A stretch of 55,664 bases of DNA from a virus. This document shows positions 13,251 through 35,261 of the stretch, in pieces. Positions within the stretch are counted from its first letter, which is position 1; every line of letters starts with the position of its first letter. The stretch covers positions 1-55,664 of IMG/VR virus record IMGVR_UViG_3300020020_000035; one strand, written 5' to 3'. Both the position numbers and the translations under genes were made by a program. The notes beneath the pieces were generated by a model that made no database searches, was not told the DNA's origin, and was given only the letters and a program-made list of their open reading frames with translations.

Positions 13251-13879
13251 GTTCCTCCGGCCACCGCCCCATCCCCGCGAGTGGAACGTGCGTCCACTAC
13301 TTCAGCGCCGCCACGGGCACCTGCCACCGGTGCGGGGTCTCGTTGATGGCGTCGGAGCATCGCATCGAGGCGCCGAGCCCCGCCGAGCCCCGGTGGTGCT
13401 CCCCCCTCGGCGACGAGGAGCTCCTGGAGATGTTCCTCGAGATGCGCGGGAGAGACGCCGTTCGTGAAGAGCTCCTCCGCCGCATGTCGCGCGGCAAGGA
13501 GCAGGTGAAGGCGCTTTGCGCCATCTGCCAGTGCCTGCCGTGCATCTGTCGAGACGCGCGGCAACCTCGCGAGCAGGTCGAGGAATGCCCGGGTGCGATG
13601 ATCCGCCCCGGCGACATCGTCGTCTGGTGGCGCACGCGCGCGGACTATCCGCTCGTGTTCGGTCCAGGGCGCCCCGTGGTCGGGGTCGTGACGGATGTCC
13701 GCGAAGGGCTGGTCACCATCGACGAGAACGGCACTACCGCTCTGCTGCCGACGGGCGACAGCTACCACCCCGCCCTTGGCCCACACGTGATCGGCCGAGT
13801 CGACGCGGCCGGTCTGCCGGTGTGGCGCGATTCGCGACCAACTCAGCCGAGCCTCGCGCTCGGGAAGGAAACCACATGA
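13247..13879 (+). CDS. Zinc-finger protein with C-terminal SH3-like part
   Basis: This 210-residue protein has three parts. They are an N-terminal zinc pattern (CVHYFSAATGTCHRCG), a middle Cys knot (CAICQCLPCIC at about residues 88-98), and a C-terminal beta-rich segment beginning IRPGDIVVWWRTRADYP with GVVTDVREGLVTI. The last part resembles small SH3-like barrels. Start ATG 13247 overlaps the previous stop (ATGA). Function unknown. Confidence 0.65.
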   Translation: MSSSGHRPIPASGTCVHYFSAATGTCHRCGVSLMASEHRIEAPSPAEPRWCSPLGDEELLEMFLEMRGRDAVREELLRRMSRGKEQVKALCAICQCLPCICRDARQPREQVEECPGAMIRPGDIVVWWRTRADYPLVFGPGRPVVGVVTDVREGLVTIDENGTTALLPTGDSYHPALGPHVIGRVDAAGLPVWRDSRPTQPSLALGKETT

Positions 13880-14727
13880 TCACGAAAGAGACCGAGACCC
13901 CAACCTGCCGCGAACTCCCCCCCGATTTCGTCCTGCTCACCGGCAAGCACGAGACCGCCGAGAAAGGCCTGTGCCTCCTCGAGGCGACCGCATACCTGGC
14001 CGGCGAGCCACACACGGACCACCCGCTGTGCGCCTGCCCCGTCGTGGCCGCGTTCGGGCGCAGGCTCAACGATGCGATCACCGACGACGCCATCCGGACG
14101 CGGCTGCTCGGTTGGCGCGCGGCGCGACTGATCGGGACGAGGTCGACACGTGCCGTGGAGCGGCGGCGCGCGTGGGTCGCGGTCGACTGGGCGACCCGTG
14201 TTCATGCTCCGCTGTGGCTCGATGCGTCGCCGGAGTTGGCTGAGCACGCGGCTGCACTCAGGGCGCTCCCGGAAATCGTCGACAGGGCCAGCGCGGAACG
14301 GTCTGCCAAGGTCCGCGACGCGGCAAGATCCGCGGCGTGGGCCCTCCGAGCCGCGAAGCGCGAAGCGCTGAGCGGGAGCAAGCTAGCCTACGCCGCCGCC
14401 TACGCCGCCGCCTACGCCGCCGCCTACGCCGCCGCCGCCGCCGACGCCGACGCCGACGCCGCCTACGCCGCCGCCGCCGCCTACGCCGCCGCCTACGCCG
14501 CCGCCGCCGCCGCCGCCGACGCCGACGCCGACGCCGCCTACGCCGCCTACGCCGCCGACGCCGCCGCCTACGCCGCCGCCTACGCCGCCGCCGACGCCGC
14601 CGCCGACGCCGACGCCTACGCGCTGCGCTCGGCGGTGAAGGCGCGTCTCCGTGAGACGACAGAGCGCTCCTGGGCATCGGGTGCGGAGTGCATCGAGCGG
14701 ATGATCGCGGTCACGGGGACGCCATGA
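13876..14727 (+). CDS. Phage protein with Tyr/Ala/Asp repeat tract
   Basis: This 283-residue protein has a conserved N-terminal module, KGLCLLEATAYLAGEPHTDH then PLCACPVVAAFGRRLND, that I recognise from uncharacterised phage and actinobacterial proteins. A helical middle follows. Residues 172-248 are made only of Tyr, Ala and Asp in YAAA/DA units. The C-terminal 35 residues are normal and helical (LRSAVKARLRETTERSW). Relatives often carry similar alanine-rich periodic tracts. The tract probably forms a long helix with aromatic residues on one face. Function unknown. Confidence 0.8.
   Translation: MITKETETPTCRELPPDFVLLTGKHETAEKGLCLLEATAYLAGEPHTDHPLCACPVVAAFGRRLNDAITDDAIRTRLLGWRAARLIGTRSTRAVERRRAWVAVDWATRVHAPLWLDASPELAEHAAALRALPEIVDRASAERSAKVRDAARSAAWALRAAKREALSGSKLAYAAAYAAAYAAAYAAAAADADADAAYAAAAAYAAAYAAAAAAADADADAAYAAYAADAAAYAAAYAAADAAADADAYALRSAVKARLRETTERSWASGAECIERMIAVTGTP
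14389..14619 (+). repeat. TAC/GCC/GAC low-complexity repeat inside a gene
   Basis: Over 231 bases essentially only three codons occur: TAC, GCC and GAC. The recurrent unit is TACGCCGCCGCC, mixed with GACGCC. Exclusive use of one codon per amino acid points to recent growth by slippage or unequal exchange. All shifts keep the frame open. Confidence 0.9.
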
Positions 14728-24673: not shown

Positions 24674-24772
24674 ATGGACCGATGGTTGCTGGCCGGAATG
24701 GCCGTCGGGTGCGTCGCCGTGGCCGTCGCGATTGCGATCGGCTGGTGGCTCGGACTCGTGACTTACGGCTAG
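24674..24772 (+). CDS. Possible 32-residue membrane peptide on the opposite strand
   Basis: ATG 24674 to TAG 24772 encodes a nearly pure membrane helix (LLAGMAVGCVAVAVAIAIGW). It fills the gap between the holin-like gene and the esterase gene. No Shine-Dalgarno sequence was seen. Such a peptide could act as an antiholin, but it could also be chance. Confidence 0.32.
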   Translation: MDRWLLAGMAVGCVAVAVAIAIGWWLGLVTYG

Positions 24773-25803
24773 AGCCCGTCGAGCAGCCCGAGCACGAGCT
24801 GCGCGTAGACGCGATGCATGTAGTCGCTCGGGTGATTGTAGTTGTTGCCGCTCTGGTCGACGTAGTTCTTCGCCGTGAGCAGCGCCTGAGATGCCGCCGT
24901 CACGTCGATCGATTCGCAGTGTCCGTCACCCGCCGCGATGGTCGCGAGCTGCGCGCCGTAGAGCGCGTGCTTGCCCGTGTGTGGCGGGTTCGTCAGCTGC
25001 GTCGGCAGCATCGACGAAAGCATGATCGCGTCCGCCGTGGCGTGAGTCCCGCGGAGGTCCGCGAGCTGCGCGGCCATGTTGGCGGCGTACGTTGCGGCGG
25101 CCACGTTCGCGGCCCCGTCGTTCATTCCCCATCCGTAGATGACGAGGTCAGGATTCTCCGGGAGAACCTGCGCGGCGTGGTTCGTTGAGCCGTAGCTCGA
25201 TTGCTGCCCGCCGACGCTCTTGTTCGCGAGCGTGACGACGGACCCGAACTTGGCCGTGAGCCGCCGCGTGACGAGCTCCGCCCACACGGGCATGTACGGC
25301 GAAATGATGTCGTACGCGCTCCCGTTCGGGAATCCGCTCGCGTTCGCGCCGACGCTGATCGAGTCACCCCATACGACGATCTTCACCGGGTTGCCGGCGA
25401 TGAGCTTCGTTCGGATCGTCGTGAGCTTCGCGGAAGCGCTCGTGGTCGGTCCTGACCACCCGCCGGCAGAGTGCGTGTACGTGACCGCGAGCTGCGCCTC
25501 GTGTAGCAGACGATTCTCGTGGACGACCGGCACACCGCCGGGCGCGAGAATCTCCGCGACGAGAGACGGCGCGATGCCGCCCGCGACCTTCTCGATCGAC
25601 TGCGTGGCCGAGTTGTACGTCCAGTCGATGCCAGCTATCAGGACGACGTCACGCCGCGCGGTCCGCACCTCCTGGATCCCAGAGATGCCGCCGGTCGGTG
25701 CGCGCAGGAGCTTTCCCTGCGCCGTCCCGCCGCTCGTGGAGAGGAGCACGACGCTCTCTCCGTAGGTCTGTGTCCCCGACCAAATCGGCGGCACGACCGC
25801 CAC
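24769..25803 (-). CDS. SGNH/GDSL esterase associated with the tail
   Basis: This 344-residue protein has an N-terminal ~135-residue domain and then an SGNH hydrolase fold. The blocks are Ser148 in VVWGDSIS, Gly199 in NKSVGGQ, Asn228 in GWGMNDG and Asp327/His330 in PSDYMHR. All four catalytic blocks are intact. It probably removes acetyl or other ester groups from host surface polysaccharide during adsorption. It starts at GTG 25803 after AAGGG and lies right after a tail-fibre gene. Confidence 0.83.
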   Translation of the reverse strand: MAVVPPIWSGTQTYGESVVLLSTSGGTAQGKLLRAPTGGISGIQEVRTARRDVVLIAGIDWTYNSATQSIEKVAGGIAPSLVAEILAPGGVPVVHENRLLHEAQLAVTYTHSAGGWSGPTTSASAKLTTIRTKLIAGNPVKIVVWGDSISVGANASGFPNGSAYDIISPYMPVWAELVTRRLTAKFGSVVTLANKSVGGQQSSYGSTNHAAQVLPENPDLVIYGWGMNDGAANVAAATYAANMAAQLADLRGTHATADAIMLSSMLPTQLTNPPHTGKHALYGAQLATIAAGDGHCESIDVTAASQALLTAKNYVDQSGNNYNHPSDYMHRVYAQLVLGLLDGL

Positions 25804-25826: not shown

Positions 25827-27377
25827 TCAGCGGCGCCCGAAAGGGCGGTAATACTCGTAGCAGATGTAGTCGACGTCGACCGTCCGCGCCGTGGTCCCGC
25901 CGCTGCCTCCGCCCTTCATCTCCATGTACTCGGTGATGTTGACCGAAGTCGCGTAGCCGGTGAGCGTGCCGATGAGGATGCCATTCACGTAGGCCGAGAC
26001 GGACGAGCTACCGGACATCGAGACCAGGACGACCTCGTACCAGGTGGCCGCGCTGATCGCTGGTAGGGCCAACGTCTGCACGACGCCGCCCGTCTTCCCG
26101 CGGACCTCGAGCGTCGTCGCGCCAGACGCCACCGTGACGACGATGCCGAGACCGTCGCCGCCGGCGGTGACGTTGTCACTCCAGCCAGCCTGCCACGTGT
26201 AGATGTTCGAAGCGTCGTGAAGGTTGTTGGCCCTGAACTTGACCGCGAACCGCTGCTTGCCAAGCGTTGAAAGGCGCTCGCTCCTGCCGGCGAAGTTGAC
26301 CAACCCGGTGGTGGTCGTCCCCTTCGTCATCGTCAGGAAACCGCGCTCGGTGAGCGTGTCTCCTGTGCCGCCGTTGTTGACCGCCGCGACGGACCCGGCT
26401 CCTGAGTAGGCGTAGAGGAACGCACCGCGACCGGCGATCGTTCCCGTCGTGATATTCGCCGCCGCTGCCGGGTGGCTGTAGTCCTCGAAGATGCGCTCGA
26501 CGAGACCAGCCGCGAATCCGTGGAGCGAGGTCGGCTCAAAGACGATCGGCGTCGTGCCGAGCGTGATGCCCGCCTCGTAGCGCGGAAGCGAGAACTCGGC
26601 ACCCGCCCACACTGCGCCGTCTCCGACCTTCACGGAGAGGCCAGCGAGCGCGGCCGCGGTGGCCAGTCCAGCGACCGGCGTGAAGGCGAACGCCGACGAT
26701 GCGCCGCCGTTGGTGAAGTCGTAGACGCCCGCCTGCGTGGGGTCGCTGCCGTTCAGCGCGAGCAGGACGCGGATCGTCGCGCCTTCAGCGACCGTGACGC
26801 CGTCGAGGAGGCCGGCGGGGAGAGCTCCGTTCGCGTTGGCGGTGAGGACAGCGGCGGGGCCTGAGCCGACCGTCGCCGTGTATGCCGGCAGAGTCGCGGC
26901 GAGGATGGCCACGCGGACCTGGGGGACGAGGACGTAGTCGACGGCGCGGAGCGTGGTCTCGAGCTGAGACGCCGACGGGTTGCCCGCGTTCGCTAGGACG
27001 TACTGACGATTCGCGATCTGGAGCGCCGTCGTCGGGTCGTCGACGGTCGCGCCGATCACCTTCCCGGTGTCGTCGATCTCGACCGCGGAGCCCTGAGCAG
27101 TAGCGCCGCCTGCACCGTCGGATCGCAGGACACGGTTGTCGGAAGCGCCGAGAGCGCCGCCGATGCCGCCCGCGTCACCGGACCCGATGAGCCGCCAGCT
27201 TCCAGAGCCGGCGCCCGTCGCAATCGCAACGTAGTCTCGCAGCGTGTCGGTCTGCCGCCAGACGCGGCCCTGCGCGAGATCCGTCGCGGTCACGACGTAC
27301 GCGATACGCGCCGCCGAATTGGCGAACGCTCCGCGTAGGATCCCGTGCGTCTTGTTTGGTGTCTCGTGCTCGCTCAT
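25827..27377 (-). CDS. Tail fibre / receptor-binding protein
   Basis: This 516-residue protein has an N-terminal attachment-like part (about 1-110), a beta-rich middle, and a C-terminal jelly-roll-like domain with LamG-type features (YTWQAGWSDNVTAGGDGLGI, then WYEVVLVSMSG and YVNGILIGTLTGY). Such domains bind sugars or proteins on the host surface. The start is ATG 27377 (MSEHETPNK); a start at 27404 would add nine residues. It lies beside the esterase gene. Confidence 0.75.
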   Translation of the reverse strand: MSEHETPNKTHGILRGAFANSAARIAYVVTATDLAQGRVWRQTDTLRDYVAIATGAGSGSWRLIGSGDAGGIGGALGASDNRVLRSDGAGGATAQGSAVEIDDTGKVIGATVDDPTTALQIANRQYVLANAGNPSASQLETTLRAVDYVLVPQVRVAILAATLPAYTATVGSGPAAVLTANANGALPAGLLDGVTVAEGATIRVLLALNGSDPTQAGVYDFTNGGASSAFAFTPVAGLATAAALAGLSVKVGDGAVWAGAEFSLPRYEAGITLGTTPIVFEPTSLHGFAAGLVERIFEDYSHPAAAANITTGTIAGRGAFLYAYSGAGSVAAVNNGGTGDTLTERGFLTMTKGTTTTGLVNFAGRSERLSTLGKQRFAVKFRANNLHDASNIYTWQAGWSDNVTAGGDGLGIVVTVASGATTLEVRGKTGGVVQTLALPAISAATWYEVVLVSMSGSSSVSAYVNGILIGTLTGYATSVNITEYMEMKGGGSGGTTARTVDVDYICYEYYRPFGRR

Positions 27378-27453
27378 GGAATTGCACCTGCGGCGCTCCG
27401 GCATGGCCGGGCACCAGTGACGGTGTCGCTGGGATCTCGGAAGGAGCGCGCCG

Positions 27454-27903
27454 CTACGGCGTGTCCGTCATGGGCTCGCCGTCGTCGTTCATGGCCTCGC
27501 CGTCATCGAGCATCGCGAACGGGTTCGATCCGCCGCCGCCTGGGAACGGGTTCGTGAAGTTCGACGGACGCACTTTGATTCGTTGCTCACTCGCCGACGC
27601 GAACAGGCCTTCGGAGATGAACCGCAAGAACCAATCACGCGCGAACGGTTGAGGCGGCGTCGCGCCTGGGGCCGCCGGCAAACTCGGCTCACTGAATTGA
27701 ACGTTCAAGGCGTAGACGCCGGTGCTGATTCGCAGGAGCTCGGCGTCTGTGCCGTAGACGTACTCGGTCTCAACGCCGAGCGGCGTCCGCACCATGAAGA
27801 CGACCGTTGCCGGATCGTACATCTGCGGCGGCGCCGTGCCGGGGATACTGAAGGTAGCAGCGAAGCGCGCTTCGTCGCCGACGATGTATGACGAGCAGCT
27901 CAC
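27454..27903 (-). CDS. Small beta-sandwich tail protein with repeated acidic tail
   Basis: This 149-residue protein has an Ig-like beta domain (YDPATVVFMVRTPLGVETEY then VYGTDAELLRISTGVYAL), common in short phage tail accessory proteins. The C-terminus is MLDDGEAMNDDGEPMTDTP, a run of 7-residue units. Almost the same tail ends the gp46-like protein at 37355-37885. The start overlaps the stop of the repeat protein gene (4 bp). Function unknown. Confidence 0.65.
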   Translation of the reverse strand: MSCSSYIVGDEARFAATFSIPGTAPPQMYDPATVVFMVRTPLGVETEYVYGTDAELLRISTGVYALNVQFSEPSLPAAPGATPPQPFARDWFLRFISEGLFASASEQRIKVRPSNFTNPFPGGGGSNPFAMLDDGEAMNDDGEPMTDTP

Positions 27904-29762
27904 CCGTTGTTGTTCCTACGATGCGTGACCGAGATCGATCCAAGCGAACCGCCCCACGAAGACGTCGACGCGGCAGGCCCGTGCATCAACGTGATCGGTG
28001 CTGAGCCGACGTATCCAACCGGCGCTACAACCGTGACGACTGCCCCGGCGCGTTCACCGGATGCCGCGCCCGATACCGAGCAGGTGATCGCGAGGAACGT
28101 GCCGGCGCGTACGGACCCGGACCGTTCACCGCTTCCGCCGCTGGCAGGAAATGACCCGAACAGCGTCCGAGCCGCTCCGCTCCGCTCCTGAGACTTGGCC
28201 CCGGCTGGGGCGCACACGATCCCGACAAGCAGCGTCGTCGAGCCGCGACGCTCCGCCGAGGAGCCCGCCGCGAGCGTGAGCCGACAGAGCGTCGTCGCGG
28301 CCCCGGCTTCCGCGCCCGAGCGGGCGCCAGCCTGCGCGAGGTTCGCCCGGGTCGTGACGGAGCCGCTGCGCTCTTGGCTGGCCGCGCCCGCTGGAGAGAC
28401 TAGGACGACGTTCCCGACCAGGACCGCGCCGCGCTCTTCGGCGCTGCTGCCCCCAGCCACGGAGTGGCGCTCGAGGATTGTGCTTGCCCCGTGCCGCTCC
28501 TCCGAGCCGCGAGAGCTCGGGGAGATGGTCAGGAGGTTCAACGCGGTGATGCGCCCGCGGGATTCCTCGGAGCTTCGCCGCGCGACGGAGACGGTCAAGA
28601 TCTCGCTGGGGATACCGTGACCCTCGTCGCTCGAGGCACCAGCCTGCACCAGCCTGGCCTGGGCTGCCTCTGCGCCGGCCCGCTCTTGCCCCCGGGCGCC
28701 CGGGAGAACGGTCCTGGCGGCCAGGTTAGCGCTGCCGCCACGGGTCTCGCTGGAGCGCCCAGAGAGGGCCGCAGTGAGGCGCGTTGTCGATGCCCCGCGG
28801 CGCTCCTCGGAGGCGCGCCCTGCCGGAGCCAGGATGAGCGCCGTGGTCCGGGTGACCGCTCCTCGAGATTCCGAGGACCGAGCCCCGGATTGAAGCAGCG
28901 TCGCCCTCGAGTTCGCCGCCCCGGATTTGGCGTCGGAAGAACGGCCGGAGAGAGCGAGCGTAGCGCGCTCCGCCGTGGCTCCGCGACGCTCGCCGGCCCG
29001 TGCGCCTGATTGGGAAAACCGAATTGCCGCGCCGGCCGCGCCGCCGCGCTGCGCAGACGAAGAAGCCGCGACGGACTGGCGATTGGATAGCCCCGCCGCG
29101 CCGGAGCTGCCGCCGGAGCTGCCGCTGGCAAGGATGAGTGTCGTGCCACCGCCGCCTCCACCCGCCGCACGAATCGAGATGAGCGCGAATGCCTGGTAGC
29201 TCGCGCCGACCGTCGTCGTGCTCGAGCCAGGCGAGTCGACTACCGCGAAGTCGCACTCCTCGGCGCTCTGGACCGGATTCGGCGAGTTGTTGAGCGAGTA
29301 CGAGACGCCGCTGTCGAAAGACGGGCTGCCGATGTCCGGCACCCATCCACACGCAATACCGCCGACCCACGCATCGGACTCGGAGTCGAGCGTGATGTCC
29401 GGGCCCTGGTCGTGCTCGGCGCCGGCATCGATGACCGGGCTGCCGGTGTCGATCCCCTTGAGGAAACACACCGCGTACGCGCGCATGTCGGTGGTCCCAC
29501 CGAACGTGATGCTCAGCGTCTGCGAACCGGTAGGCGGAGAGACCAGGTACGCCACGCCGGCGTAATTCAGCGCCGCTGCCGGAGCAGTCCCAGCAGCAAA
29601 CGTGAGCGCGTTGCCGCCGAGAGTTGCTGCTGTGGCCTCGGCGCCTGCTGCACTCCAGAGGTCGAAGAAGACGAGTGCGATCTCCGCGTCGCCCGGGACC
29701 GTGATCGATGCTGGCCCGTCCCAGTGCAGCCAACTGACGGAGCCCGTGATCTCGATGGCCAT
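27900..29762 (-). CDS. Tail protein with 18 tandem ~20-residue repeats
   Basis: This 620-residue protein has three parts. An N-terminal beta-sandwich (residues 1-200: TVPGDAEIALVFFDLWSA, AYAVCFLKGIDTGSPVID) resembles fibre-base domains. A Gly-run linker (201-206) leads to about 18 tandem repeats (207-580). Their consensus is G-A-x-S-S-x-E-R-x-G-A followed by ~10 alternating hydrophobic residues, at a spacing of 19-24 residues. A short C-terminal cap follows (HGPAASTSSWGGSLGS). The pattern suggests a beta-solenoid or trimeric fibre shaft. It lies among tail-fibre genes, so it is probably a host-contact fibre. The repeat fold was not matched to a known family. Confidence 0.72.
   Translation of the reverse strand: MAIEITGSVSWLHWDGPASITVPGDAEIALVFFDLWSAAGAEATAATLGGNALTFAAGTAPAAALNYAGVAYLVSPPTGSQTLSITFGGTTDMRAYAVCFLKGIDTGSPVIDAGAEHDQGPDITLDSESDAWVGGIACGWVPDIGSPSFDSGVSYSLNNSPNPVQSAEECDFAVVDSPGSSTTTVGASYQAFALISIRAAGGGGGGTTLILASGSSGGSSGAAGLSNRQSVAASSSAQRGGAAGAAIRFSQSGARAGERRGATAERATLALSGRSSDAKSGAANSRATLLQSGARSSESRGAVTRTTALILAPAGRASEERRGASTTRLTAALSGRSSETRGGSANLAARTVLPGARGQERAGAEAAQARLVQAGASSDEGHGIPSEILTVSVARRSSEESRGRITALNLLTISPSSRGSEERHGASTILERHSVAGGSSAEERGAVLVGNVVLVSPAGAASQERSGSVTTRANLAQAGARSGAEAGAATTLCRLTLAAGSSAERRGSTTLLVGIVCAPAGAKSQERSGAARTLFGSFPASGGSGERSGSVRAGTFLAITCSVSGAASGERAGAVVTVVAPVGYVGSAPITLMHGPAASTSSWGGSLGSISVTHRRNNNG
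28023..29144 (-). repeat. Coding tandem repeats, about 18 units of ~60-66 bp
   Basis: The Glu-Arg or equivalent pair recurs at residues 258, 278, 298, 319, 339, 360, 380, 399, 421, 442, 464, 484, 504, 526, 546 and 570, a mean step of about 21. Units are diverged, so the array is old or under diversifying change. Confidence 0.75.
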
Positions 29763-29765
29763 CGT

Positions 29766-30065
29766 CTACCGTCTGACTGAGCGGACTCCGTCGACCAGCG
29801 GTCGGAACTCTTCGATCACCACTGCTGTCACGATGCGCCCACCGGCTCCGAGTGGCCTGGGCTCCGCGTACCGGCAGATGCGCTGCTCACGGGTGCCGAC
29901 GATCTTCAACCCAGTCACCTCGCCGCGAGACCTGCGACCGTCGAGCGTCACCGCCTCCGCATCCGAATCAGCGGCAGGCGATTCGGAGCGACGGGTCACG
30001 CGAACGATCGGGTACGTGACGCCGTACCTCGTCGCCCAGGTTACGGTTTCAGAGACGTCGGCCAT
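29766..30065 (-). CDS. Small tail-region protein
   Basis: This 99-residue beta-rich protein (TWATRYGVTYPIVRVTRRSE) starts at ATG 30065, nine bases after the previous gene. No family recognised. It is likely a structural or assembly factor by position. Confidence 0.6.
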   Translation of the reverse strand: MADVSETVTWATRYGVTYPIVRVTRRSESPAADSDAEAVTLDGRRSRGEVTGLKIVGTREQRICRYAEPRPLGAGGRIVTAVVIEEFRPLVDGVRSVRR

Positions 30066-30074
30066 CGGCCGCTC

Positions 30075-30929
30075 CTACAGCCGCACGATCTTGTCGGGGC
30101 CGTTGTCGAACTGGAACGTCACGTCGCCGCCGCTCGGAGTAAACGGAATGCCAGCGCTCGTGGTGGCGACGTCGGCTGTGTGACCCGCGGCGATGGCGCC
30201 GGAAATGGCAGATACCGCGATCGACCGCGCGCCAGCCGCTGCTGTAGATGTCGTAGTGGCCGTGATACCGTTCGAGAAGATCATGGCGACGCCGCTCGCG
30301 ATCGGTCCCTCTAGCTTCTCCACCCAAAGAGTAGTGGCCGAGCTCGCCGCGTCTGCGGCAACGATGACCTGAGTCTTCCCGTCGATCCATACGGCGAGGC
30401 GGTCCGTCGCCGCTGAGCCGGTATCCTTGTAGATCGCCAACCCGATTACCTCGGAGCCGGACAGCGCCGTGTAGGAAACGTCGGCAGCGTCGAGGACGCC
30501 GTTCGTGACCGTCTTGGACCCGAGCGTCTGATCGGTTCCGACTGCACCGGCGTTGATGTCGTCTCGGTTGTCGGAGGTCGTCAGGTTCACCGCGACGCCG
30601 CCGCTCGTGTAGGAGCCATTGCCGACGCTCGCGAGGTTGTCTTTGACGGTGCGGAGTTCGACGGTGTTCGTTGCCTGGTTTGCAACCTGCCACGTGCCGT
30701 TGGCTGACGTGTTCCCGCCGACCTTCGAGACGACGATGATATCGCCGTTTGCCCATCCGTGCGCGGTCACCGTCAGGACGATCGGTGATGCGTTCGTTGC
30801 GCCAGAGACCGTCTTGATGCCAACGTCTGCGGTCGCCGCCGTGAGTTGAGACTTGATGGTGTTGGTGTCCCAGTCGATCGAGCCGTCCGCGAAACCCTCG
30901 CGGCCCTTGTCAAATAGCCTAGTACTCAC
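30075..30929 (-). CDS. Tail structural protein (GREGF family)
   Basis: This 284-residue protein opens with LFDKGREGFADGSIDWDTNT, a start I recognise from uncharacterised phage structural proteins. A long Thr/Ser/Ala-rich beta body follows (TVTAHGWANGDIIVVSKVGG). GTG 30929 is preceded by a strong AAGGAGAG. It is probably a tail or fibre-associated component. Confidence 0.7.
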   Translation of the reverse strand: MSTRLFDKGREGFADGSIDWDTNTIKSQLTAATADVGIKTVSGATNASPIVLTVTAHGWANGDIIVVSKVGGNTSANGTWQVANQATNTVELRTVKDNLASVGNGSYTSGGVAVNLTTSDNRDDINAGAVGTDQTLGSKTVTNGVLDAADVSYTALSGSEVIGLAIYKDTGSAATDRLAVWIDGKTQVIVAADAASSATTLWVEKLEGPIASGVAMIFSNGITATTTSTAAAGARSIAVSAISGAIAAGHTADVATTSAGIPFTPSGGDVTFQFDNGPDKIVRL

Positions 30930-33314: not shown

Positions 33315-34118
33315 TCAGGTCCACGTGCCCACGCCCCAGCCGGAGCCGGTGCCCCACATGAAGTCGCCGCCGGGGACGCCGTCGTCGACGTAGTCGATGA
33401 GCGTCACGACCCAGAGGTGAAGAGGCCGTAGCTTCATCAGAAGCCGTTCGAACTCCGCCTTCCGCGAGAGCGGGACCGTTGCGTGATCGGGGAACGTCTC
33501 CGCTCCCACGTAGAAAAACTTTGGATAGACGTCCGGGTCGTTCGGGATCGGTGGCGGCGCTTCTTGCGTCAGAAGCTTGTTCACCAGGTAGTGCGGATCG
33601 TTCACCAGGAAGGCGTTGCACTGGTACTGGGTGATGATGAAGCCATCGACATCGGGTCGACCATCGCTGCACTGAGGTTGCCCAGTGGTCTCCCAACCAG
33701 GGCCCGTGCATTGCACCGTCCCGATCTGCGGGATGTCGGTGTAGTCGTGCGGGTCGCGAGCGACGTACGGCGGACCGCTCGCCCACCACTCGTGGATGTA
33801 GACGTCGAAGCCCGCGGTCTGGAGAACGTCCTGGACGTAGTGCGGCGACTGCCCGCCGGTCGCGCGCCACTCGGCGGCGAGGTTCAGGCGGCGGATCGAG
33901 TCGCTCGGATTTGGTCGAAGCCCGAACTGCCGTTCCCACTCGTCAAGCTCAGTGGTCGTTTCGGGTGAGAGCTGCTCCCACGCCTCATCGATTACAGCCT
34001 TACCGCTATCGAAGGCAGGAGCGAGGCCCTCAATGAACCGCCGGAGATCGGTTTTGTGGGTGACGCGCCAGGCCCAAGCCCGCGGAATTAGGTGAACGAG
34101 GGTGGCGAAAAACCCCAT
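33315..34118 (-). CDS. Mu gp48-like (YmfQ/DUF2313) baseplate protein
   Basis: This 267-residue protein matches the YmfQ/DUF2313 build. A helical N-terminal half has FDSGKAVIDEAWEQLSPETT and WERQFGL. A beta-rich half follows, with MLKLRP-type LRPLHLWVVTLIDYVDDG. In Mu-like phages it follows baseplate J and connects to the tail fibres. Here two plus-strand lipoprotein genes and a fibre gene separate it from baseplate J, so the module has been interrupted. Confidence 0.78.
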   Translation of the reverse strand: MGFFATLVHLIPRAWAWRVTHKTDLRRFIEGLAPAFDSGKAVIDEAWEQLSPETTTELDEWERQFGLRPNPSDSIRRLNLAAEWRATGGQSPHYVQDVLQTAGFDVYIHEWWASGPPYVARDPHDYTDIPQIGTVQCTGPGWETTGQPQCSDGRPDVDGFIITQYQCNAFLVNDPHYLVNKLLTQEAPPPIPNDPDVYPKFFYVGAETFPDHATVPLSRKAEFERLLMKLRPLHLWVVTLIDYVDDGVPGGDFMWGTGSGWGVGTWT

Positions 34119-34134
34119 GGAATCAGCTGTTCAG

Positions 34135-34163
34135 TTGACGGATCGGGAAACAGGCCGTTCCAT
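34135..34163 (+). promoter_or_regulatory. Possible promoter of the lipoprotein pair
   Basis: TTGACG (34135-34140), a 17-bp spacer and TTCCAT (34158-34163) give a good -35 and a weak -10. The ATG at 34171 is only seven bases further, so the message would be nearly leaderless. An own promoter would fit a moron expressed from the prophage. Confidence 0.4.
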
Positions 34164-34170
34164 TTGTCAG

Positions 34171-34500
34171 ATGGGAAAGCTCTGGGGCGTGGTTGTGGGC
34201 GCGGCGCTGACCGCACTTGGGTGCGACAGCAACGAAGGTTCGTCGTCCGCGAAAGCAGCGGTAGCCGAAGCCGTTGTCGCTCCCGGTGCCCTCGTGATGG
34301 GCGCGATCGAGGCCAAGGTGGCCACGGACTCCGTCGCTCAATACGACATGGTCAAACGCAACAACGGGTCCGCCGTGGATCTGTGTGTGCACGCCGGGCT
34401 GGTCTCTGCCGCCTATCTGCAGGCGAAGAACGAACCCGAGTTCAAGAAGTGGAAAGGCGTCGAAAAGTCTGATTGCGCCAGCGCCGGGATGCCGCAGTGA
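34171..34500 (+). CDS. Lipoprotein in a moron cassette
   Basis: This 109-residue protein has a signal sequence and lipobox (LWGVVVGAALTALGC, then DSNEGSSS). The mature part is Ala-rich with two Cys (VDLCVHAGLVSAAYLQAKNE). It is on the plus strand inside the leftward late operon. ATG 34171 is chosen because upstream in-frame codons overlap the start of the gp48-like gene. Function unknown. Confidence 0.68.
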   Translation: MGKLWGVVVGAALTALGCDSNEGSSSAKAAVAEAVVAPGALVMGAIEAKVATDSVAQYDMVKRNNGSAVDLCVHAGLVSAAYLQAKNEPEFKKWKGVEKSDCASAGMPQ

Positions 34501-35261
34501 AGCGATGGGCCATTCTTGGGATCCTGCTCGCCTCGGCGTGCGGCGGTGACGGCGGCGAGCCTGTCGAGGTAGTTGCGACCGGCGGGGCGCTGTCCACAGG
34601 CGGCGCCCCTGGGACGGGCGGGAGCGCGAGCACGGGCGGAGTTCAGGAGACCGGCGGCGAGCCCGGCACGGGCGGCCTGGCGTCGACTGGAGGCGTCCCC
34701 GTCGGCGGGAGCGCGGCTACCGGAGGCCTTGCCACGGGCGGCACGGAGGCCACGGGCGGGGCAGCGACGAGCGACGATGCTGGGCCCACGGAAACGGACG
34801 GCGGCGCGGGCGAGGACGATGGGGGAAGCGGGTCAGGTGGATCTCCCGGTACCGGCGGAGCTTCGAGCGGTGGCGCGGCCACCGGCGGGGCCGTTGCGAC
34901 GGGAGGCGCGGTTGCGACCGGAGGAGTCGCGGCCACCGGCGGCGCGCCCGCGTGCGAGTGTTCGAGCGGGCCGTGCTGCGACGGGTGTCACTTCCGAGAA
35001 GTGAGTCACCGTTGCCTCGTTGCCGAGTGGGCCGCGACGGAGTGCGAAGGAACCGTGCTCACCCAGCCGGGATGCGCCGGCATGACGAACCGCATCGGAG
35101 TGGACCGTCGGAACCGTTTCTGCTCCGGCGAGTCCGCCGCGTGCGACGGTCGCTACACGTACCTGTCCACGTCCTATTCCGAGGCGTGTCCGTCCGGCAC
35201 CGCGTGCACGACCGTCGGCACGGGGCCGACCGCCGCTCAGTGCGTCCCCTGCGGCAACTAG
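34497..35261 (+). CDS. Myxobacterial-type TGG-repeat lipoprotein with Cys-rich domain
   Basis: This 254-residue protein has a lipobox (ILGILLASAC) followed by a long low-complexity stalk (about residues 25-155) rich in Thr-Gly-Gly and Ala-Thr-Gly-Gly units. It ends with a Cys-rich domain (CECSSGPCCDGCHF; about 14 Cys) likely held by disulfides. TGG-stalk lipoproteins are frequent in Polyangiales genomes, so this gene looks host-derived. GTG 34497 overlaps the previous stop (GTGA), so the pair is co-translated. It probably alters the lysogen's surface. Its stop shares CTAG with the convergent fibre gene stop. Confidence 0.75.
   Translation: MKRWAILGILLASACGGDGGEPVEVVATGGALSTGGAPGTGGSASTGGVQETGGEPGTGGLASTGGVPVGGSAATGGLATGGTEATGGAATSDDAGPTETDGGAGEDDGGSGSGGSPGTGGASSGGAATGGAVATGGAVATGGVAATGGAPACECSSGPCCDGCHFREVSHRCLVAEWAATECEGTVLTQPGCAGMTNRIGVDRRNRFCSGESAACDGRYTYLSTSYSEACPSGTACTTVGTGPTAAQCVPCGN

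Follow-up and report, generated by a model that had tools for sequence, protein, structure and literature searches.

A charged tandem repeat beside a tail wing arm-like phage gene is probably a diverged variant of the GIASAEAFG repeats of minor tail proteins

A tandem repeat with the canonical unit G-I-A-S-A-E-A-F-G-x-x-x-V followed by 7 to 10 further residues matches 33 Mycobacterium phage records, and in mycobacteriophages the proteins that contain it carry the annotation minor tail protein. Among the loci collected here, L007 (E=2e-41) and L003 (E=9e-41) match the PHROGs family phrog_13352, "minor tail protein." A second described system bears on the same proteins through a neighboring gene. 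This is the tail wing of phage Bxb1, whose structure has been deposited as 9D93 (PMC13148394; PMC13243192) and in which gp31 is named the tail wing arm.

The window that we analyzed is the whole of a 55,664-base IMG/VR virus record. Matches on its minus strand to a GpA-type terminase, portal, head maturation protease, tail sheath, tape measure, baseplate hub and wedge, and a Gp48-like wedge protein mark it as a contractile-tail type of phage. The repeat gene lies 3′ of the baseplate genes and 5′ of a GDSL esterase gene and a lysis-like group that includes an M15 peptidase. The features of this region are as follows.

33315-34118, minus strand: Mu Gp48-like baseplate wedge protein (PF10076, phrog_203)
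30075-30929, minus strand: 284-aa gene, related to gp31, the Bxb1 "tail wing arm"
29766-30065, minus strand: 99-aa ORF (ORF list) separating the arm-like gene from the repeat gene; none of the fetched loci held a relative
27900-29762, minus strand: 620-aa repeat protein (ORF, repeat analysis, third-position GC)
29148-29762, minus strand: its nonrepeat N-terminal region, aa 1-205, a possible beta-sandwich; no library or tblastn match
28011-29126, minus strand: its 18 repeat units, aa 213-584, G1 x x S4 x E6 R7 x G9 A/S10, spacing 20/22/24 (unit analysis)
27903-28010, minus strand: its C-terminal tail, aa 585-620 (from the sequence)
27454-27903, minus strand: 149-aa ORF (ORF list) directly downstream of the repeat gene, without a match in Pfam or PHROGs library searches; likeness to a BppU-like N-terminal domain by eye only
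25827-27404, minus strand: 525-aa protein with a C-terminal LamG/concanavalin-like stretch, putative glycan binder (PF13385, E=4.4e-5, below the Pfam cutoff)
24769-25803, minus strand: 344-aa GDSL esterase, putative surface-glycan deacylase (PF13472, E=5.5e-13)

Two other places in the window drew our attention. At 34102-35261, two plus-strand genes without a Pfam match oppose the tail operon and resemble an acquired (moron) pair; the second has TGGA..TGG repeats, a style that we take to resemble myxobacterial secreted proteins, and a Cys-rich end. Within the plus-strand ORF 13516-14727, also without a Pfam match, a 12-bp array of about 20 copies at 14386-14621 encodes Ala/Tyr/Asp low complexity (AYAAAYAA...DADADA).

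The tandem repeat is genuine and lies far above chance expectation. The preliminary description had reported 18 diverged copies at 28023-29144, which corresponds to aa 207 to 580 of the 620-aa ORF on the minus strand, and we located all 18, including a degenerate first unit, starting at residues 213, 233, 253, 273, 293, 315, 335, 355, 375, 395, 417, 437, 459, 479, 499, 521, 541, and 565. The spacing is regular, as had been said, but the unit length of about 21 residues is corrected to 20, 22, or 24, every value even. The column consensus of the last 17 units is G1 (71%), S4 (88%), E6 (76%), R7 (65%), and G9 (100%), with A or S at position 10 in about 88%. The unit can thus be written G-A/R-x-S-x-E-R-x-G-A, with a hydrophilic first strand and greater hydrophobicity toward the end of the unit, at positions 17 to 19. 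Self-similarity peaked at lags of 62, 20, 82, 102, and 42, reaching 0.71 at lag 62, whereas no shuffle out of 200 exceeded 0.10. There were 9 occurrences of the strict skeleton [GA]..S.[EQ]..G, against a mean of 0.23 and a maximum of 3 in 5,000 shuffled sequences. The earlier view was right in that the repeat is regular, diverged, and of beta type and is encoded in a cluster of virion genes. The beta-sandwich base proposed for aa 1-205 found no confirmation in sequence: the region ranked first against a mycobacteriophage domain profile, with a nonsignificant E of 0.059.

The third-position GC of the repeat gene is 0.79, which supports the coding frame. Identity between units averages 31% for amino acids and 43% for DNA, with maxima of 55% and 63%. 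The units are therefore old, and the array bears no sign of recent slippage. Tandem Repeats Finder detected no 60-bp array in the repeat region, only a 27-bp run at 29099-29125. A collagen- or polyproline II-type fiber, with Gly-X-Y or GGX periodicity, was rejected, as there were 7 Gly pairs at lag 3 versus 21 at lag 20.

AlphaFold2 gave the whole protein, modeled as a monomer from six alignment rows, a mean pLDDT of 31, with values of about 22 to 49 over the repeat. Five units of L007, modeled from sixteen rows, three of which were fragments of the 620-aa protein, reached a pLDDT of 57 with two strands per unit. The fold matches of this L007 model included solenoids such as SRRP (TM 0.62), none with a significant E value. 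A Foldseek search with the low-confidence model returned no match at E<0.001 and was not taken as evidence. Since AlphaFold2 overpredicts beta-solenoids for repeats (PMC11795689), we claim no fold for the window's protein; the rigid solenoid and the trimeric shaft of the preliminary description are both candidates. The even spacing and the low-confidence model of the whole protein suggest two short strands per unit.

Such low pLDDT values would also be expected if the repeat were an intrinsically disordered Ala/Ser/Gly/Arg-rich linker or brush, perhaps adhering to charged or lipid material on the cell surface. The composition fits this idea (19% Ala, 16% Ser, 14% Gly, and 11% Arg, almost no aromatics, and a net charge of +18), and there is a precedent in mycobacteriophage Mysterious, whose minor tail proteins have predicted polyglycine-rich domains that are absent from the cryo-EM map (PMC13252515). 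However, an invariant G9, strongly kept S4 and E6, even spacings, and hydrophobic positions 17 to 19 are expected of a structured beta repeat, and the glycines lack the Gly-X-Y or GGX periodicity. We therefore regard disorder as possible but unlikely.

The preliminary description had called the repeat unrecognized and unmatched. Direct searches with the 620-aa protein against Pfam, PHROGs, PDB, phages, plasmids, and viral contigs found no relative. There was no PHROGs match even at E<=1 and no match to the chains of 9D93. A PDB sequence search found no structure of the repeat, and literature searches for the motif found no paper describing it. Scanning bacterial genomes for neighbors of Gp48 found nothing. 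Viral contigs were also scanned for runs of three ERxxG units placed 60/66 bases apart; of the 109 stretches retrieved, none resembled the 620-aa protein when its translation was read. This negative is weak, because the pattern is also absent from the window itself. The absence of a Pfam, PHROGs, or PDB match thus stands, but the skeleton, the period, and the gene neighborhood of the repeat turned out to be shared with the GIASAEAFG repeats of phage minor tail proteins.

The link came through the 284-aa gene at 30075-30929. Its family matches the PDB entry 9d93 "Tail wing arm, gp31," with E=7.8e-21 for L002 and 2.4e-19 for McProf gp73. The window's own product matches gp31 weakly when compared directly (E=0.007) and strongly with the family HMM (E=4.7e-33), and on these matches we place it in the family of the Bxb1 tail wing arm. 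It is 284 aa long, compared with the usual ~135, and its C-terminal half is also longer. Since the 9d93 match begins at residue 113, an additional segment seems to lie near the N terminus.

With the 284-aa product as the only query, we retrieved nine viral-contig loci, representing five distinct phages. A GIASAEAFG-repeat protein, with units of 20 to 25 residues, was encoded just downstream of the arm-like gene in all nine. The single locus found in a scan of bacterial genomes with the same query, L150 (in a genome bin), likewise had a repeat protein, with four units. Conversely, an arm-like gene lay within a few kilobases of repeat genes found by other routes, namely, those of L035 and L036, which were retrieved through the repeat protein, and those of McProf (gp72), Cosmo (gp45), Marvin (gp88), and Rctr197k_090. 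The gene order of L035 (terminase, arm-like gene, repeat gene, GDSL esterase, a further protein, portal) echoes the window's series of arm-like, repeat, 149-aa, LamG-like, and GDSL genes.

In Island3, KSSJEB, and phiCbK, by contrast, the arm-like gene is not accompanied by canonical repeats. The window resembles Bxb1 in having a gp31-type arm gene, but near the arm relative of KSSJEB there is no canonical repeat gene. In Pseudomonas phage Baskent_P6, the arm-like gene lies near a gene for a 987-aa protein (L146:9717-12680) in which loose GxxxxxFGxAxVxxxxRxxxPxG repeats can be seen by eye; this protein has no score with the canonical matrix.

We then compared the units themselves. The window's protein and the GIASAEAFG family (phrog_13352; McProf gp72, Cosmo gp45, Marvin gp88, and others) share a period of about 20 to 25 residues, the positions G1, S4, E6, and G9 in register, the arm-like neighbor, and an architecture of tandem diverged units joined to nonrepeat domains. 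They differ in that I2, A7, and F8 are missing from the window's units, which have A, R, or G at position 2, mostly R at position 7, R, S, A, G, or H at the polar position 8, and more hydrophobic residues at 17 to 19. MAFFT, which was not given the register, aligned the two sets of units in register, with G1, E6, and G9 sharing columns. The profile-profile score was 1.65 in register, and none of the 19 other registers scored above 0.21 (p<1/3000); the in-register position was the best for each of four canonical sets (p=0.0055, 0.001, 0.056, and 0.0015). The canonical matrix gave only six positions above zero in the 620-aa protein, all of them true unit starts, and in a phmmer search of 844 ORFs its repeats matched L007 with E=6.8e-6. 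Because the units had been cut by their own motif, the register tests partly depend on that choice and are not fully independent.

Other comparisons failed. A profile HMM of canonical double units did not place the 620-aa protein above shuffled decoys, hhalign of the two unit alignments gave only P=0.017, and the mean canonical log-odds score of the window's units was negative; the HMM miss and the negative mean follow from the loss of I2, A7, and F8. The support for homology from sequence comparison (p of about 0.001 to 0.06) is therefore moderate, and the claim leans on synteny, given which homology with the GIASAEAFG repeats is likely. The 620-aa protein is probably a diverged variant of that family rather than a standard member.

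An independent repeat could instead have converged on the G-x-x-S-x-E-x-x-G skeleton in the same gene slot, without being a GIASAEAFG homolog. The failure of the canonical HMM, the differences at hydrophobic positions 2 and 8, and the lack of sequence relationship between the N-terminal regions are what such convergence would leave. However, it would have to account for a shared skeleton and period with in-register support and for the same neighbor gene in all of the loci fetched with that neighbor, and we think it distinctly improbable.

The number of units differs among relatives, bearing out the suggestion that copy number may vary. It ranges from 4 to 17: 17 in L003, 16 in L009, 14 in L007 and L035, 8 in McProf gp72, about 6 in L010, 5 in Rctr197k_090 and Marvin gp88, 5+5 in L002, and 4 in L150. 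At L035:4317-4610 there are 4.9 copies of a 60-base unit with a 97% match, and this array is a recent tandem expansion. A change in copy number may, as the preliminary description also proposed, alter reach or specificity.

Taking these results together, we consider it probable that the 620-aa protein is a diverged, charged member of an unnamed repeat family of the phage adsorption apparatus, acting as a beta-rich spacer. The repeat protein would be a peripheral part of that apparatus, attached to the tail through its arm-like neighbor. Its repeat would form a beta-rich, extended spacer setting the distance from the tail to the sugar-binding or sugar-cleaving proteins, and the number of units would fix the spacer's length. 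The genes may travel from one genome position to another as an adsorption cassette, in which the repeat protein would be the spacer or adhesin.

In L002, L008, L009, and L035, the arm-repeat pair lies among head and packaging genes (terminase, portal, protease, and major capsid), and position does not, therefore, prove the virion location. A head decoration or head fiber would suit those four loci but is the most doubtful reading, given that the window's gene follows baseplate wedge genes and the mycobacteriophage gene follows minor tail genes, that the neighbor is a tail wing arm relative, and that a GDSL esterase sits within the same L035 cassette.

A more detailed version of the spacer model can be offered only tentatively, and we think it unlikely to hold as a whole. 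In this charge-swapped repeat, stacked Glu-Arg ladders would stand in for the hydrophobic contacts of positions 2 and 8, and packing would be taken over by the second strand. The resulting spacer would have a hydrophilic core and would belong to a mobile cassette for adsorption, made up of arm, repeat, and esterase genes and common to mycobacteriophages and contractile-tail phages.

If the favored reading, a diverged family member acting as a spacer, is right, an orphan repeat is linked to a recurring, still unnamed phage tail protein repeat. That repeat would also be paired with a family of solved structure, that of the tail wing arm, which would provide a structural handle on many proteins now annotated simply as minor tail proteins. 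The 620-aa protein would then be a natural test of how well the repeat tolerates the loss of its hydrophobic positions.
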